A stretch of DNA of 56,506 bases from an uncultured Paracoccaceae bacterium (GTDB lineage: Bacteria > Pseudomonadota > Alphaproteobacteria > Rhodobacterales > Rhodobacteraceae), in assembly GCA_947499715.1 (NCBI GenBank), contig CANMPL010000008.1, positions 1 to 56,506 of the forward strand, written 5' to 3'. The notes under the pieces were generated by a model. The model made no database searches and had not been told where the DNA came from. It worked only from the letters and a program-made list of their open reading frames with translations. The translations under genes were made by a program, and so were the position numbers. Of this stretch, positions 31,125 to 44,604 are shown piece by piece. Positions within the stretch are counted from its first letter, which is position 1. Each line of letters opens with the position of its first letter.

Positions 31125-31568
31125 TCACGAACCGATTATTTTATCCAATGCGGCCTTTTCTTCGGCGCTGAGCGCCTTTGGCCCCGCGACATCGCGGCGT
31201 CGGATCGTTGTCCAACCGATTCCGAGCCCCAAAAGCAGCAGAACAGGTGCTGCAAGCCAAAGGATCAGATTGCTGCCGTCCGTGCTGGGGCGCATCAACA
31301 CAAATTCACCAAATCGGGCGACCATGTAATCCATGATTTCGGCGTCAGTGTCCCCGGCCACCAGCCGTTCCCGCAAGACGATCCGCAATTCGCGGGCCAC
31401 CGGTGCATGGGATTCGTCGATGCTTTCGTTTTGACACACAGGGCAACGCAAAAGCGTCGAGATCTCGCGCGCACGCGCTTCGAGCGCGGGATCATCAAGC
31501 ACTTCGTCAGGTTGCACGGCCCATAGCGGCGCCGCACACAAAATCAGGATGCAAAGCAGCCGCTTCAT
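31125..31568 (-). CDS. ccmH: Cytochrome c maturation protein CcmH (CcmL/Ccl2 type)
   Basis: Periplasm-facing, membrane-anchored thiol protein that prepares apocytochrome c CXXCH cysteines for heme attachment with CcmF. 147 residues: signal peptide (MKRLLCILILCAAPLWA), the redox motif LRCPVCQ with Cys42 and Cys45, and a C-terminal membrane helix (LILWLAAPVLLLLGLGIGW). It is the short form without the TPR extension, as in Rhodobacter where Ccl2 is separate from CycH/CcmI. Start overlaps the ccmF stop by four bases. Last gene of the murI-ccm unit. Confidence 0.96.
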   Translation of the reverse strand: MKRLLCILILCAAPLWAVQPDEVLDDPALEARAREISTLLRCPVCQNESIDESHAPVARELRIVLRERLVAGDTDAEIMDYMVARFGEFVLMRPSTDGSNLILWLAAPVLLLLGLGIGWTTIRRRDVAGPKALSAEEKAALDKIIGS

Positions 31569-33526
31569 TCCGCTGGCACCGCTTTTGCGGCCCCCGCGCC
31601 AATGCGCAGGCGACGATCTGTGAGAGACAAGAACCCACCAAATGCCATGAGGATGCAGCCGCCCCAAATCCAATTGGCCAGCGGCTTGATATAGACGCGA
31701 ACAGTATGGCCACCCTGGGGCTGCGGATCACCGATCACGACGTAGATGTCGCGCAGGAAACCATTGCGAATTGCGGCCTCTGTCGTTGGCATCTGCGCGA
31801 CGGGGTAGAATCGTTTTTCAGGATATAGCACATCGATATCACGGCCGTTCTGTGCCATCGCGATCTGGGCCATGGTGGTCTGGTAATTGGGACCCAGGTC
31901 GCGCGTGACGTCCTGCAAGGTGAATTCATAAGCCCCGACTTCATAGGTTTCGCCCGGTTGCGCGACGCGGATATCCTCGACCTGCCATGCCAAGATGCCT
32001 GATACCCCCAAGATTGTGACGCCCATGCCAGCGTGGGCCAGGGCCTTGCCCCAATCCGCGCGTGGCAACCGCAGGATCCGCCGCAGCCGGTCAGACACGT
32101 CACCGCGACCGCTGCGCAGCCATAGATCCAATGCAGCACCGCCAATGACCCAAATCCCAAGCGCGATCCCAATCGGGCCAAGCGCGGAACGACCGCTTTG
32201 CACTGCGTAGGCTGTTCCCGCGACGGCCACGGCCAAGATCGCGAGGGCCCCAAGCAGACCTTTCGCCTTGTTCAGACGGCCGCGTTTCCAAGCCAGCAAG
32301 GATCCCAAAGGCATGACGACTGCGAGCGCGACCATGAATGGTGTGAAAGCCGCATTAAAGAACGGCGGTCCGACGGACATGGTGCGGTCAAACAACAGCT
32401 CTGCCACCAGCGGCCAGATGGTGCCGATGAAAACCACAAAGCAGCTGACAGCCAAAAGGATGTTGTTGAGGACAAGCGCGCTTTCCCGGCTGACGGTGCC
32501 AAAGACGCCCTGAGCCTGCATCGCACTCGCGCGGATCGCAAAAAGGATCAACGCACCACCCAAAAAGAAACCCAGGATGGCAAGGATGAAAACGCCCCGC
32601 TCTGGATCATTTGCAAAAGCGTGCACGCTTGTCAGCACGCCCGAGCGGACGATGAATGTGCCCAAAAGCGAGAAGCCAAATGCGAGGATGGCCAAGAGGA
32701 TCGTCCAGCTTTTCAACGCTTCGCGCTTTTCCACCACGATGGCGGAATGCAGCAAGGCGGCCGCAATCAGCCACGGCATGAAGCTTGCGTTTTCTACCGG
32801 ATCCCAAAACCAGAACCCGCCCCAGCCAAGTTCATAGTAGGCCCACCACGACCCCAGCGCGATGCCGACGGTCAGGAACATCCATGCGGCCAATGTCCAA
32901 GGCCGCACCCACCGGCCCCAAGCGGCATCGACGCGCCCCTCGATCAAGGCAGCGACGGCAAAGCTGAACGTCATGCTCAGCCCAACGTAGCCGAGGTAAA
33001 GAAAGGGCGGATGAAACGCGAGACCGGGATCCTGCAAAAGCGGGTTGAGGTCACGCCCGTTCAGCGGCACAAAATCCAGCCGGTTGAACGGGTTCGACGT
33101 GAACAGAATAAAGGCATAAAACGCGACAGAGACGGATCCTTGCACAGCCAGCACCCGCGCCCGCAAACGCTGCGGTAAATCGTCGCCAAACCATGCTGCA
33201 CAGGCCCCAAAGATCGCGAGGATTAACACCCAAAGCAGCAATGATCCTTCGTGATTGCCCCAAACGCCGCTGACCTTGTAAAGCATCGGCTTATCGGTGT
33301 GGGAATTGAGGTAAACCAGCTCAACCGAGAAGTCCGAGACCACAAAGGCCCAGGTGAGGACAGCAAAGCTAAAGCCGACGAGGATCACCTGCAAGGTTGC
33401 CGCAGGTTCTGCCACCGACATCCACGCGCGCCGACCGGTCTGCGCACCAACAAGCGGCAAAACGGTCTGGGCGATGGCGACAGCAAAGGCCAGAATCAGG
33501 GTGAAATGTCCAAGCTCTATCAGCAT
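31565..33526 (-). CDS. ccmF: Cytochrome c heme lyase subunit CcmF
   Basis: Multi-spanning inner-membrane core of the cytochrome c synthetase, attaching heme brought by CcmE. 653 residues with about 13-15 membrane helices. The heme-handling WWD domain WGGFWFWDPVENASFMPW is at about 235-252, and the conserved His residues in NHEGSLLLW (90s) and FHPPFLYLGY (about 171-180) are present. The ATG at 33526 (MLIELGHF) is the family start. No ccmG lies here; in Rhodobacter that gene is in the separate helABCDX cluster. A small cassette of lysis genes separates it from ccmE. Confidence 0.97.
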   Translation of the reverse strand: MLIELGHFTLILAFAVAIAQTVLPLVGAQTGRRAWMSVAEPAATLQVILVGFSFAVLTWAFVVSDFSVELVYLNSHTDKPMLYKVSGVWGNHEGSLLLWVLILAIFGACAAWFGDDLPQRLRARVLAVQGSVSVAFYAFILFTSNPFNRLDFVPLNGRDLNPLLQDPGLAFHPPFLYLGYVGLSMTFSFAVAALIEGRVDAAWGRWVRPWTLAAWMFLTVGIALGSWWAYYELGWGGFWFWDPVENASFMPWLIAAALLHSAIVVEKREALKSWTILLAILAFGFSLLGTFIVRSGVLTSVHAFANDPERGVFILAILGFFLGGALILFAIRASAMQAQGVFGTVSRESALVLNNILLAVSCFVVFIGTIWPLVAELLFDRTMSVGPPFFNAAFTPFMVALAVVMPLGSLLAWKRGRLNKAKGLLGALAILAVAVAGTAYAVQSGRSALGPIGIALGIWVIGGAALDLWLRSGRGDVSDRLRRILRLPRADWGKALAHAGMGVTILGVSGILAWQVEDIRVAQPGETYEVGAYEFTLQDVTRDLGPNYQTTMAQIAMAQNGRDIDVLYPEKRFYPVAQMPTTEAAIRNGFLRDIYVVIGDPQPQGGHTVRVYIKPLANWIWGGCILMAFGGFLSLTDRRLRIGAGAAKAVPAE

Positions 33527-33608: not shown

Positions 33609-33812
33609 CTACGGGATTAAACCGCCGCGCAGGATATAGGTGATCATCCCCAAGATGAGGCCCCCGATCACCAAACGAACCAACCACTTCAGCATATCCT
33701 CGATATTGCTCAGCCGGTTGGAGACGTTGTTGTGATGAACGGCGGTCACTGCATTGTGGGTTTCAAGTGCAGTGATCCGCATCTCGATTGATGTGGCCCA
33801 ATCATCCGCCAT
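33609..33812 (-). CDS. Small coiled-coil membrane protein, XhlA-like lysis accessory (inferred)
   Basis: 67 residues from MADDWATSIEM (a 79-residue version starting at 33848 is possible). Residues about 5-40 form an amphipathic coiled-coil helix (EMRITALETHN, NRLSNIEDMLKW), followed by one membrane helix (VRLVIGGLILGMITYIL, about 46-62). This soluble-helix-then-anchor layout is that of XhlA, a protein encoded with the holin and endolysin in the Bacillus PBSX lysis cassette. The start overlaps the holin stop by 11 bases, so it is translated with it. Family membership is my inference from topology and position, not from sequence identity. Confidence 0.65.
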   Translation of the reverse strand: MADDWATSIEMRITALETHNAVTAVHHNNVSNRLSNIEDMLKWLVRLVIGGLILGMITYILRGGLIP

Positions 33813-34314
33813 GGCGCGACCACCATTCTGCGAGGGCGGCATTGTCACCGTCTTGCGGTGCCGCCGCAGGATCGGGCGTCGTGATGGCTTGGGTCAACGC
33901 GACGGACTGGACAACTGATCGTTGAAAGTCTTGTCCTTTTGCCTGATGACGCGCGCCAAAATAAAAGCTGACAATGGCCCCCATGAGCCACCAAAGCGGT
34001 TCCGGTATCAAGGCGACGCCAACCATCCGGTCCGCGAACCACACCGGCTCTTTCATCGCAGCGACAAAAAGCGCAATCGTGCCAAGTGCCAATGCCGGGC
34101 GCGGCAGGCGGTTCAGCGCGTCGACAAAGCGGTCAAAGAGCCCTTTGCGGGGCTGTGCAAACTCTGTCGCGAATTGCGCCAAAGCCGCAGATTTTCCATC
34201 GGCGGCGCGCACGGCTGCCTTTTCGGCATTCTCCCGGAAGACCTCGACCGTTTCAGTGACTGTATTGCGGCCGTCGCCAAAAAGCAGTGACATCATGCCT
34301 GTGATCAACCCCAT
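33802..34314 (-). CDS. Holin of the GTA_holin_3TM type
   Basis: 170 residues: an amphipathic N-terminus, a basic segment, a first membrane helix at about 72-88 (PALALGTIALFVAAMKEP), a short second hydrophobic stretch around 94-103, and a third (WWLMGAIVSFYFGARHQAKG) at about 108-122. This is the pattern of the Pfam family GTA_holin_3TM, holins that open the inner membrane to release gene transfer agents in Rhodobacterales. It overlaps the endolysin gene upstream by ten bases and the XhlA-like gene downstream by eleven. In Rhodobacter capsulatus a holin-endolysin pair outside the main GTA cluster is needed for GTA release. Confidence 0.88.
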   Translation of the reverse strand: MGLITGMMSLLFGDGRNTVTETVEVFRENAEKAAVRAADGKSAALAQFATEFAQPRKGLFDRFVDALNRLPRPALALGTIALFVAAMKEPVWFADRMVGVALIPEPLWWLMGAIVSFYFGARHQAKGQDFQRSVVQSVALTQAITTPDPAAAPQDGDNAALAEWWSRHGG

Positions 34315-34916
34315 GATGCGATCCTTTGCTGGTGTTGCTGGTGGCTCAGGTGATAGCGCGGTGCGATGAATTCTTCAGCGCGGCGTATCCAGCCGCCCTT
34401 ACCGCCGTCGCGCCGCCGTGCGTATTTACGGCTGGCCGGGCGGCGGTCTGCCAATGCGTAGTAGTAATTGCGACGTGCAATTCCGTAGGCGTCCGCAAGG
34501 TGATCGGGTGCCGCAGCAAAAGCCTTTTCCGCTGCAGCGGCCGTTTGCGGACCGATTACACCGTCGACACTGCAATCGATGCGCATCTGGTTCAGCAGAC
34601 GCTGCAGGATCTTCACCGCATGGCTGCCGGCATTCACGTACATATCGAAAACACTGGCCTGCAGGGGTTGCGGCAGCAAATTGATACGAGGGCCATCAAA
34701 ATAGTGTTTGACGAAGATGTCCTCTGCCTGTTGGCGCGTGAGCCGCCGCACGTCGGCGGTGCTGATCTGGCCGTCTCCATCCAGATCAAGCCCAAGTCGG
34801 CGCATGGTGTGAATGGTAACGCCAAAGTTGGTGGCACCACCGGGATCAGAGGGGTCATTCACATAACCGCCTTCCCGGGCCACGATCTCGGCCGCGATTT
34901 GCCTGACTGTCTGCAT
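34305..34916 (-). CDS. Endolysin, glycoside hydrolase 108 family, with EF-hand loop
   Basis: 203 residues, a peptidoglycan-cutting muramidase. The GH108 catalytic motif is REGGYVNDPSDPGGATNFGV with Glu15. Inserted at 44-55 is a textbook calcium loop (DLDGDGQISTAD: Asp at 1, 3 and 5, Gly6, Ile8, Asp12). The C-terminal half carries a peptidoglycan-binding domain 3 signature (DGVIGPQTAAA, then YYYALADRRP). No signal peptide, so exit depends on the adjacent holin. It lies 41 bases after ccmE on the same strand. Homologous to the GTA endolysin of Rhodobacter by family; exact orthology was not tested. Confidence 0.9.
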   Translation of the reverse strand: MQTVRQIAAEIVAREGGYVNDPSDPGGATNFGVTIHTMRRLGLDLDGDGQISTADVRRLTRQQAEDIFVKHYFDGPRINLLPQPLQASVFDMYVNAGSHAVKILQRLLNQMRIDCSVDGVIGPQTAAAAEKAFAAAPDHLADAYGIARRNYYYALADRRPASRKYARRRDGGKGGWIRRAEEFIAPRYHLSHQQHQQRIASWG

Positions 34917-34957
34917 CTCAATCCCCTATGTTGAAGGGGCAAAATGCGAGGGGATGG

Positions 34958-35416
34958 TTAATTCGTCGCTTCAGCACCGTCCGGTGCGACGTAGGTTCCC
35001 TGTTCTTTCAGCGCGTCGATGACCTCTTTCGGCATGTAGGTTTCATCGTGTTTCGCAAGAATTTCAACAGCTTCAAAGGTGCCATTGATGTAACGCCCCT
35101 GCCCGACCATGCCTTCACCTTCGTTGAAGAGATCCGGCAGGATCCCATCGTAGGTGACCGGGATTGTGGCACCACCGTCTGTCACGGCAAAGGACACGCG
35201 CGTCCCCTCACCACGTTGAATCGAGCCTTCGGCGACAAGCCCACCAATGCGAAAAAGTTCTGTTTCTTGCGGCGGGTTCTCAGCAACTTCCGTGGGCGAG
35301 CGAAAGAACTGAAAGGAATCGTCCGGCAGAAGCGCCAGAATGACCAGCACTGCCGCAATGCAAACACCTGAAAGCGCCAGGATCTGTATGCGCCGCTTTT
35401 TCTTCAGGCTTTTCAT
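34958..35416 (-). CDS. ccmE: Cytochrome c maturation heme chaperone CcmE
   Basis: Carries heme covalently in the periplasm from CcmABCD to CcmF. 152 residues: a short basic N-terminus, a membrane anchor ([20 protein letters not shown]), a beta-barrel (OB) domain with [44 protein letters not shown], and the heme-binding His of [12 protein letters not shown]. Start overlaps the argC stop by four bases. Next genes on the strand are the lysis cassette, not ccmF as usual. Confidence 0.97.
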
Positions 35417-40955: not shown

Positions 40956-41906
40956 ATGATCGACAAGAATATGAGTGAACTCGATTTCGGCGGGCATCAG
41001 ATGGACTGGGACAAGCTAAGAATATTTCACGCCGTCGCAGACGCGGGATCGCTGACTCATGCGGGCGACACGCTGCATCTGTCGCAATCTGCCGTCAGCA
41101 GGCAAGTGCGCGCCCTGGAAGAATCACTCAATACGACGTTGTTCCACCGCCACGCACGTGGGCTGATTCTGACGGAACAGGGTGAACTTCTGTTTGATGC
41201 GACCAAATCGATGAACAAGCGGTTGGAGGCGGCATCTGCACGTATCCGCGACAGCGAGGAAGAAGTATTTGGTGAGCTGCGGGTCACGACGACTACCGGA
41301 TTTGGGACACTTTGGCTCGCGCCCCGCCTGCCTAAGCTTTATGAACTTTACCCAGACCTCAAAATTGACCTGATGCTGGAAGAGCGTGTGCTTGACCTGC
41401 CGATGCGCGAAGCAGACGTCGCCATCCGCATGAAAGAGCCAAGCCAGGCGGATCTGATCCGCAAACGCCTGATGTCGGTTCGGATGCGGCTTTATGCGTC
41501 GCGCAGCTATCTGGAAGAGGTCGGCAGCTTTGACAACATCGAAGACGTCGCCAATCACAGGCTGATTTGCCAAAGCCCGTCGTCGACACAGGTCGCCGCC
41601 GGGGCCGCAATGGTGCAGCACCTATTGTCGTATGATGTGAAGTCGCTTTTGACCGTCAACAACTACTTTGGTGTTTTGCAGGGCGTGCTGAACAAACTCG
41701 GTGTCGGTGTCTTGCCTGACTACGTCACAGAGGATTTCCCAGAGCTCGTGCGCATCCTGCCTGATGTGGAATCAGGTGAAGTGCCAGTGTTCCTTGCCTA
41801 TCCGGAAGAATTGCGGCAATCCAAGCGCATCAGCGCCTTCCGGGATTTTGTGCAGGACGAAATCATCGCTCATCGCCGGAAAATCCGAGAATCTGCGGCG
41901 AGTTAA
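40956..41906 (+). CDS. LysR-type transcriptional regulator
   Basis: 316 residues (starts at codons 6 and 16 are also possible, the last giving MDWDKLRIF). The winged HTH covers about 16-75 (LRIFHAVADAGSLTHAGDTL, LSQSAVSRQVRALEESLN), followed by a periplasmic-binding-like effector domain with FGTLWLAPRLPKLYELYPDLKIDL and GVGVLPDYV. It is divergent from the indolepyruvate oxidoreductase gene with 111 bases between, the usual layout for LysR control; the ligand could be an aromatic acid but this is a guess. A terminator is at 42060-42088, some 150 bases downstream of the stop. Confidence 0.9.
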   Translation: MIDKNMSELDFGGHQMDWDKLRIFHAVADAGSLTHAGDTLHLSQSAVSRQVRALEESLNTTLFHRHARGLILTEQGELLFDATKSMNKRLEAASARIRDSEEEVFGELRVTTTTGFGTLWLAPRLPKLYELYPDLKIDLMLEERVLDLPMREADVAIRMKEPSQADLIRKRLMSVRMRLYASRSYLEEVGSFDNIEDVANHRLICQSPSSTQVAAGAAMVQHLLSYDVKSLLTVNNYFGVLQGVLNKLGVGVLPDYVTEDFPELVRILPDVESGEVPVFLAYPEELRQSKRISAFRDFVQDEIIAHRRKIRESAAS

Positions 41907-42010
41907 CCGTAGTGGCGGCCAAGCTATGCGCCATGCGCATACCGGGATTGCACCGAAATCTGCCCAATTTTTCTTGAATGGTCAAAAATCCACCCCTATG
42001 TGGAACCACG

Positions 42011-42088
42011 AGGCAGTTGATGCTTTTGCGCTCATTGCCTCACCTCCCTGTTGGACTTTGCCGGGCCTTGTGCCCGGCATTTTTTTTG
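42011..42088 (+). ncRNA. Candidate small RNA with CCUCCC motif and own terminator
   Basis: The stretch 42011-42040 can fold as AGGCA...TGCCT with an inner GATG/CAT pair. It is followed by unpaired CACCTCCCTG (42041-42050), which contains an anti-Shine-Dalgarno-like CCTCCC, and then by the strong terminator at 42060-42088. Hairpin, CCUCC motif, terminator is the layout of several alphaproteobacterial sRNAs (for example the CcsR RNAs of Rhodobacter). No promoter is obvious, so it may instead be the 3' UTR of the LysR gene. Confidence 0.3.
42060..42088 (+). terminator. Strong intrinsic terminator downstream of the LysR gene
   Basis: GCCGGGC and GCCCGGC around loop CTTGT, followed by A and eight T. 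It is 153 bases beyond the LysR stop. Confidence 0.9.
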
Positions 42089-42444: not shown

Positions 42445-44604
42445 ATGTCCGATCCAGAAATCACCGCAGACATCATCGCCGCACATGGCTTTACTCCGGA
42501 AGAATACGCGGAGGTCAAAAAGATCCTGAACCGCGATCCCAACTTCACCGAAATGGGCATCTTCTCGGCGATGTGGAACGAACATTGTTCCTACAAGTCT
42601 TCCAAAAAGTGGTTGCGCACATTGCCGACCGAAGGCCCTCAGGTCATCTGCGGCCCCGGCGAAAACGCGGGTGTTGTTGATATCGGCGATGGGCAGGCTG
42701 TGATCTTCAAAATGGAAAGCCACAACCACCCCAGCTACATCGAACCCTATCAGGGTGCCGCAACCGGCGTTGGTGGCATCCTGCGGGATGTCTTCACCAT
42801 GGGCGCACGCCCCATTGCGGCAATGAATTCGCTGTCGTTTGGCGCACCTGATCACCCCAAGACGCGCCAGCTTGTGAATGGCGTGGTGGCTGGTATTGGC
42901 GGTTATGGCAACTGCTTTGGGGTGCCGACCGTTGGCGGCGAAGTCCGTTTTGATCCGGCATATAACGGCAATTGTCTTGTGAATGCCTTTGCTGCGGGCC
43001 TCGCTGATACTGACAAGATCTTCTATTCCGCCGCCTCTGGCGTTGGGATGCCTGTTGTCTACCTTGGTGCCAAGACGGGGCGCGATGGCGTTGGTGGAGC
43101 GACGATGGCCTCGGCCGAATTTGACGACACGATCGAAGAAAAACGCCCCACCGTGCAGGTCGGTGATCCCTTCACTGAAAAGCGGTTGATGGAAGCGACG
43201 CTGGAACTGATGGCGACCGGTGCTGTGATCTCTATCCAAGACATGGGTGCTGCTGGCTTGACCTGCTCGGCCGTTGAAATGGGCGACAAAGGCGGGCTGG
43301 GTGTGCGCCTTGATCTGGAAAAGGTGCCGCAACGCGAAGAGAATATGACAGCCTATGAAATGATGCTGTCTGAATCGCAGGAACGGATGCTCATGGTTCT
43401 CAAACCAGAGCTTGAGGCCGAAGCCCGCGCCGTGTTTGACAAATGGGACCTCGATTTTGCCATTGTGGGTGAAACACTGCCCGAAGACCGGTTCTTGATC
43501 GTCCACAACGGGGAAGTGAAAGCGGACCTGCCGCTGTCGAAACTGTCGTCCACGGCCCCGGAATATGATCGCCCTTGGGTGCCGACCCCACCTGCGGAAC
43601 CACTTGGCGACATTGTTGGTGTCGATCCGATTGACGGCCTCAAGGCGCTGATCAGCAGCCCGAATTATGCAGCCAAGCAATGGGTTTACGAACAATACGA
43701 CAGTCAGGTGATGGGCGACACAGCCCGCATTCCCGGCCTTGGTGCAGGCGTCGTGCGTGTCCACGGAACGCCCAAATCGCTCGCTTTCACGTCTGACGTG
43801 ACACCGCGTTATGTCAAAGCCAACCCAATCGAAGGCGGGAAACAAGCGGTCGCAGAGGCTTATCGCAATCTGACATCTGTTGGCGCGACGCCACTGGCAA
43901 CTACCGACAACATGAACTTTGGCAACCCTGAAAAGCCAAACATTATGGGGCAATTCGTCGGGGCCATCCAAGGCATTGGTGAAGCCGTGAGCGCACTCGA
44001 TATGCCAATCGTTTCTGGCAACGTCTCGCTCTACAACGAAACCGATGGGACCGGCATCTTGCCAACGCCGACGATCGGCGCTGTTGGCCTGATCGCCGAC
44101 CCAGACCACATGATCAATGGACAGCTACGCGAAGGTCACGTGCTGCTTCTTGTTGGTGAAACGCAAGGGCACCTTGGTCAGTCCGCCCTCTTGGCAGAGG
44201 TTTATGACCGCGCTGAGGGTGACGCCCCGCCCGTCGATCTGGCCGCCGAAAAACGCAACGGGGACTTTATTCGTGCGAACCACGCCCTAATCCGCGCCTG
44301 TACTGATCTGTCGGACGGCGGACTTGCCTTGGCCGCATTTGAGATGGCCGAAGCAGCAGGCGTCGGCATTACACTCGACGTTGCCGACACGCCAACTCTC
44401 TTTGGGGAAGATCAGGCGCGCTATCTGGTCGCCTGCAACTTTGATCAGGCAGAGGCGCTGATGATTTCAGCCGGGCAATGTGGCGTCCAACTGTCAACCG
44501 TTGGCAAGGTTGGCGGTGAAGCGGTGACATTCGGTACCGCGTCTGCACCGCTGGCCGAGCTCACCCAGATCTATCGTTCGTCCTTCGCCAAAGCGGTTGC
44601 CTAA
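42445..44604 (+). CDS. purL: Phosphoribosylformylglycinamidine synthase subunit II (PurL, small type)
   Basis: Catalyses the ATP-dependent conversion of FGAR to FGAM in purine synthesis, together with PurQ and PurS. 719 residues, the size of the short PurL that needs the separate partners. Blocks include [12 protein letters not shown] (33-44 region), [48 protein letters not shown] and [21 protein letters not shown]. Ribosome site GAGGGGGAAAC. A bolA-grxD block follows; purL-bolA-grxD is a common alphaproteobacterial order. PurQ and PurS genes are not in this window. Confidence 0.97.

Follow-up and report, generated by a model that had tools for sequence, protein, structure and literature searches.

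A GTA-type lysis cassette between ccmE and ccmF with a putative promoter of its own and a predicted read-through lock

By their published descriptions, two endolysin–holin pairs come closest to the one analyzed here. In Rhodobacter capsulatus, rcc00555/rcc00556 lie away from the main GTA cluster and are reported to be controlled through a CtrA half-site and GafA (parts of PMC6363796 and PMC9638019), and they are co-expressed with the GTA cluster as members of a GTA co-expression module (part of PMC4158056). Dinoroseobacter shibae has the pair Dshi_1756/1757, which is also located apart from the GTA cluster (part of PMC6473078). For R. capsulatus, the cited part of PMC6363796 further describes TTAAC as the half-site for CtrA in the gafA promoter, the binding of GafA to the lysis-cassette promoter, and a CtrA-dependent induction of the endolysin, and putative CtrA half-sites at the lysis promoter are noted in the cited part of PMC9638019. 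According to passages of PMC11150451, the GafA binding elements of R. capsulatus have not been mapped at nucleotide resolution.

With respect to translation, a likeness exists to phage T4, where the Shine-Dalgarno (SD) sequences of the lysozyme gene e, and also of soc and I-TevI, are masked in transcripts that are initiated upstream (parts of PMC3014915 and PMC2988022). As the late promoter of gene e lies in the DNA coding for the 5′ arm, the transcripts from this promoter lack that arm (PMC3014915, in part), and I-TevI likewise combines SD masking in read-through RNA with a late promoter in the 5′-arm DNA (PMC2988022, in part). In the open-access literature searched, we found no mention of a position in ccm, of a CGNACG box, or of an SD-masking hairpin as described below.

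The cassette and its place in the family

The window is a stretch of 56,506 nucleotides from an uncultured Paracoccaceae bacterium, and all cassette features are on its minus strand. The endolysin (34305-34916, 203 aa) is a GH108 N-acetylmuramidase with a PG_binding_3 domain, with matches to PF05838 (Glyco_hydro_108, 94.3 bits) and PF09374 (PG_binding_3, 79 bits) and a match to PDB 2nr7 (E 1.2e-19), and it passes the NCBIfam equivalog NF040573 "holin-associated N-acetylmuramidase" with 368.7 bits at a curated cut-off of 240. It is followed by a holin of the GTA_holin_3TM type (33802-34314, 170 aa; PF11351, 93 bits, gathering cut-off 24.8) and by a third gene for an XhlA-like coiled-coil membrane protein (33609-33812, 67 aa from an internal ATG at 33812), which was scanned in its longer 79-aa GTG form and matched XhlA PF10779 with 37.5 bits (gathering cut-off 34.7) and phrog_1193 with 2.9e-12. 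The minus-strand housekeeping gene ccmE (34958-35416) ends 41 bp upstream of the endolysin, and ccmF (31565-33526, minus, start taken at MLIELGHF) lies downstream. Family matches identified CcmF, CcmH, and CcmE in the flanks and, further out, two proteins that we take for ArgC (a semialdehyde dehydrogenase) and MurI (a member of the Asp/Glu racemase family).

The initial annotation had described an endolysin, a holin, and a 67-residue ORF on one strand between ccmE and ccmF, and both coordinates and family matches agree with this. The claimed overlaps of 10 and 11 bases are found between endolysin and holin (34305-34314) and between holin and third gene (33802-33812), respectively, and the assignment as GTA-type lysis genes is upheld by the NF040573 and PF11351 matches over cut-off at a position between ccmE and ccmF. 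A single transcript may possibly span the cassette and its ccm neighbors. The XhlA-like protein, taken as 33609-33848, also has a weak similarity, below cut-off (E 7e-4), to NF048001, the family of the GTA head formation protein RCAP_rcc01685. Elsewhere in the window, Rfam detected the SorX sRNA (singlet oxygen resistance RNA X) at 42004-42085 on the plus strand (59.2 bits, gathering 46.6), flanked on one side by a gene of the LysR family (40956-41906) and on the other by one (42445-44604) that encodes two AIRS domains and a FGAR-AT linker.

A survey of 199 family genomes, with each genus represented once, showed that the ccm position is the family norm and not special to the source genome. 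NF040573 was matched in 175 of the 199 genomes and exceeded its cut-off in 168, and in 145 of these 168 the best endolysin copy was directly behind ccmE, with the ccmE end at most 260 bp upstream on the same strand. Near the best copy, ccmE or ccmF was seen in 160/168 genomes and neither in 8/168, counts in which ccmF was missed where the fetched stretch ended early; in one of the eight (G171), a second copy (L141) does follow ccmE. In a biased set of 80 named best-hit loci, 72 had the order CcmE-endolysin-holin, a few of them with the genes at a distance, and the 10-bp endolysin/holin overlap was kept in 122 of 165 genomes. As this order recurs family-wide and the overlap is kept so often, the arrangement is not a matter of chance, and the comparison of gene order in relatives that had been suggested initially gave ccmE-endolysin-holin as the common position in the family. 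Among the 31 genomes without an over-cut-off endolysin, the ccmF locus was fetched in 30 (two stretches end at contig ends), and 11 of these 30 loci showed an empty site with ccmE next before ccmF, 5 to 275 bp apart. As part of our best explanation, we regard the cassette as RcGTA-type GTA lysis genes long settled between ccmE and ccmF. Such a near-fixed chromosomal home is useful for locating the GTA lysis genes in this family.

The third gene is optional in the family. With a profile made from the window protein, an XhlA-like ORF after the holin was found in 17/165 survey genomes and in 22/80 named loci, so that the "complete" three-gene cassette of the initial annotation does not hold as a general unit and the third gene is ruled out as a standard part.

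Two variants of the neighborhood are worth recording. In 11 survey genomes (L005, L009, L020, L198, and seven others), a divergent gene with an HPEGG motif, whose product we take to be cupin-like, replaces ccmE upstream of the cassette. A class-wide draw of 192 genomes yielded five over the NF040573 cut-off, three from the same family and two from one genus of another family; in these two (L349 and L350 of G361 and G264), a holin adjoins the same endolysin equivalog, and no ccm gene was matched within the short stretch fetched.

Promoter elements and a predicted hairpin before the endolysin

The endolysin is preceded by the two-box element CGNACG-N16-TTAAC. In the window, box 1 is CGGACG (34978-34983, minus) inside the coding end of ccmE, and box 2 is TTAACC (34956-34961, minus), which shares the ccmE stop TAA (34958-34960) and matches the CtrA half-site. 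Survey leaders contained TTAAC at -70..-30 in 104 of 147 cases, 79 of them as TTAACC, and TTAAC was not found within -90..-30 in 39/147. The control windows had no TTAAC before ccmF (0/111), holin (0/143), ccmE (0/147), and argC (0/88); of these, the ccmF and argC windows are the fairer controls, since those before holin and ccmE consist largely of coding DNA. CGNACG stood exactly 16 bp before TTAAC in 57/147 leaders, compared with a total of 8 counts over the remaining spacings between 0 and 40. The box starts within ccmE in 41 of the 57, always in the same codon frame, and lies wholly behind ccmE in the other 16; the pair also occurs in 6 of 23 cassettes that are not close behind ccmE, so a constraint on the CcmE protein does not explain it. 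In the empty ccmE-ccmF junctions, the pair was present in 0/11 and TTAAC in 2.

Downstream of TTAAC, the 104 aligned leaders had A in 73% at +16 and T in 82% at +20, which corresponds to a -10-like CANNNT. In the window, this putative -10 is CATTTT (34941-34946, minus), it overlaps the left arm of the hairpin described below, and the start of the cassette's own promoter is predicted at 34934 (minus), that is TTAAC+27, in the hairpin loop. By its sequence match, TTAACC qualifies as a CtrA half-site at which CtrA probably binds, and GafA is the candidate reader of CGNACG, which therewith offers a nucleotide-level candidate for the partner site at the lysis promoter. The initial annotation had thought of an internal promoter in the 41-base gap; putative promoter elements are indeed present there, but they are not confined to the gap and lie partly inside ccmE. 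As a predictor of a regulon, the two-box element was discarded, as the source genome has 4 matches to it and 13 to the pattern in reverse. Inspection by eye of the ORFs near the other three matches revealed no GTA gene, the element is absent from the GTA structural cluster of the same genome, and at 20 mixed DUF2793 loci, which presumably contain head-spike candidates, the strict pattern was found in 0/20 and a loosened pattern in one.

A hairpin is predicted to cover the SD sequence and start codon of the endolysin (34913-34947, minus), with an inner stem in which 34935-34939 pairs with 34923-34927, the latter being the SD sequence AGGGG (minus) that forms the right arm. The leader of the window folds with a z of -2.18 and is equaled or surpassed by 5 of 200 shuffles. 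When the leader was cut to the own-promoter start, no hairpin resembling that of the full leader was obtained. Across the survey, leaders from -45 to +6 reached z < -2 against dinucleotide shuffles in 82/168 genomes, and the controls did so in 5/165 (holin), 8/146 (ccmE), 17/125 (ccmF), and 11/89 (argC). A hairpin of at least 5 pairs was found in 114 of 116 TTAAC-bearing leaders, by a loose test without control, with median arm positions of about +14..+29 from TTAAC (left) and about -17..-2 from the start codon (right). The predicted mean exposure of the SD sequence rose from 0.17 in read-through RNA to 0.51 for a start at TTAAC+27 and was higher in 91 of 100 genomes; for the window, the predicted unpaired probability rose from 0.006 to 0.66.

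These data suggest the following mechanism. The cassette's own promoter would consist of CGNACG, for which GafA may be the reader, of the CtrA half-site TTAACC 16 bp further downstream, and then of the -10-like CANNNT. mRNA reading through from ccmE would fold the hairpin over the endolysin SD sequence, and its translation would be blocked, whereas mRNA from the own promoter would start inside the hairpin, lack the left arm, and be translated to give endolysin and holin and thus lysis. The start site and the effect of the hairpin on translation are model-based predictions here. Among the three ways of silencing raised initially, the internal promoter finds its counterpart in the CtrA-type half-site and the blocked translation in the SD-masking hairpin, and both may apply at once: we think it probable that an RcGTA-type cassette is kept silent by two layers, namely its own regulated promoter and a translational lock.

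The hairpin was related to the position behind ccmE. With refined starts, 80 of the 145 best copies behind ccmE had z < -2 versus 0 of the 23 other best copies, which comprise 0/15 with ccmF but no close ccmE (one of them, G196, with ccmE 404 bp upstream) and 0/8 with neither gene; the remaining 65/145 leaders behind ccmE fall short of this value. A repeat with 200 shuffles gave 78/145 behind ccmE and 0/11 with the divergent cupin-like gene upstream. Hairpin strength also fell with the distance from ccmE (Spearman 0.27, p 0.001). The contrast between ccmE-linked and divergent-neighbor leaders is suggestive only, as an independent-pairs test of it contained only 3 tree changes, which is too few. 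For five genomes (L130/L141 of G171; L239, L253, L259, L265), a second endolysin copy was also retrieved, and three of these five copies reached z < -2, with L141 behind ccmE and the other two elsewhere. Within G171, the copy behind ccmE had a strong hairpin (z -2.38) and the other copy none (z 0.74). The idea that terminators stand in for the hairpin in genomes with long gaps was rejected, as there was no trade-off with hairpin strength (p 0.32, in the wrong direction); terminator-like hairpins were present in 21/44 long-gap genomes by a loose test without chance control.

It is conceivable that the hairpin forms in all transcripts, including those from the own promoter, and that it only lowers translation or needs a trans-acting factor to open it, without any lock against read-through. 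Any start from TTAAC to TTAAC+18 would indeed keep the hairpin, with a predicted SD exposure of 0.18-0.23, and the two second copies away from ccmE fold strongly. Nevertheless, we hold this to be unlikely, as the -10-like CANNNT at +15..+20 would place the start near +27, and as none of the 23 best copies that are not close behind ccmE reach z < -2.

Association of the cassette with GTA genes

The GTA structural cluster on whose presence elsewhere in the genome the initial annotation had made its reading depend exists in the source genome at G000:C4, where GTA_TIM was matched. A 19.9-kb stretch (L326) contains in a row the genes for portal, prohead protease, HK97 capsid, head-tail connector, major tail protein, distal tail protein, baseplate hub (g13), and NlpC/P60; 2 of the 10 ORFs scanned had no NCBIfam match, including the ORF in the terminase position. 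The endolysin–holin pair is thus located outside the GTA cluster of a GTA-bearing genome, which is one of the features of an RcGTA-type lysis cassette.

Across the 199 family genomes, the presence of the endolysin tracked both GTA markers, in agreement with the initial assignment. For GTA_TIM, 156 genomes had both, 12 only the endolysin, 16 only the marker, and 15 neither (Fisher p 1.4e-7, not kinship-corrected), and for g13, the respective numbers were 142, 26, 15, and 16 (Fisher p 3.5e-5, not kinship-corrected). GTA_TIM as the sole marker was abandoned, partly by elimination, as 14 genomes whose best match had an E of only 1e-36 to 1e-46 were without over-cut-off g13, and g13 was therefore adopted as an additional marker. 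The cassette probably has a role in GTA release.

The 26 of 168 cassette-bearing genomes without g13 over its cut-off could also speak for a programmed lysis that is independent of GTA, with GTA particles merely making use of the cassette. In these genomes, all 26 endolysin frames are free of internal stops (two are cut by contig ends), 23/26 holins have at least 120 aa, and TTAAC is retained in 21/26 versus 97/142 in the remainder. However, the presence of the cassette goes with the GTA markers, and the g13 losses are scattered over the endolysin tree (24 changes versus a mean of 24.4 after shuffling), which fits recent loss. In addition, a search with the own capsid in 16 of the 26 genomes, which also missed the g13-bearing genome G003, found a full-length relative in G062 and broken pieces in G096 and G029. 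We therefore consider a GTA-independent function quite improbable. At G096:C243 and G029:C23, the GTA capsid relatives are truncated or broken by stops, and the endolysin of the lysis cassette is still open there.

Complementarity of the hairpin arms and comparison with known systems

The letters of the hairpin arms vary between genomes, with complementarity being kept. When right arms were swapped among 100 genomes, own arms gave -16.5 kcal/mol versus -11.8 for permuted arms (sd 0.28, best of 2000 -12.7), so that 0/2000 permutations reached the own-arm value, a distance of 16.5 sd, and the own right arm was among the best 5% of partners in 37/100 genomes. The holin and ccmE controls were flat, and those of argC (-10.06 versus -9.06, sd 0.30, 3.3 sd) and, slightly, ccmF (-11.48 versus -11.03, sd 0.25, about 1.8 sd) were not. 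Column-fixed covariation was weak (best z 3.4 among 164 geometries), as the stem slides between genomes; from 15 leaders, RNAalifold predicted 4 pairs, 2 with two-sided change, and Rfam had no family at the cassette locus.

An inverted repeat that overlaps the inferred promoter region could in principle be a DNA operator for a dimeric regulator and not an RNA structure. This is very unlikely, as arm letters differ among genomes while complementarity is kept, as G-U accounts for 11.9% of the hairpin pairs, which RNA allows, and as the end of the right arm is close to the start codon, with a median of -2. An ordinary prophage remnant that landed by chance in the source genome is refuted, even though GH108, holin, and XhlA are phage families too, by the same site in 145/168 genomes, one per genus, and by the equivalog exceeding its cut-off in only 5/192 class genomes, 3 of them of the same family. 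From sequence comparison, the two-layer control of the cassette is supported by its position, the two boxes, and the arm complementarity, and a T4-like read-through lock is strongly indicated.

Among known systems, LypABC of the Caulobacter GTA also represents host lysis genes for GTA release, but there a CARD-NLR-like system lyses the cells, and no holin-endolysin homologues were found in Caulobacter according to the cited part of PMC13236601. XhlA (PF10779) is represented by the third gene, which is over the family cut-off and is here optional and placed after the holin. As to phage T4, the SD sequence is, by prediction only, sequestered in upstream-initiated RNA as in gene e. Unlike gene e, the endolysin here belongs to a bacterial chromosome, where it lies within a housekeeping operon behind a putative CtrA-type and not a T4 late promoter, and the lock is a predicted one. 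On balance, we lean towards the reading that a lethal cassette is carried in an essential respiratory operon thanks to a lock of the T4 lysozyme kind, which depends on transcript origin; a single stretch would then serve as ccmE end, CtrA-plus-partner promoter, and masking arm, and only own-promoter mRNA would yield endolysin. If true, this would explain in concrete and testable terms how lethal GTA lysis genes are kept off although the operon around them is in constant use, and it would extend the control logic of phage T4 to a bacterial chromosome.
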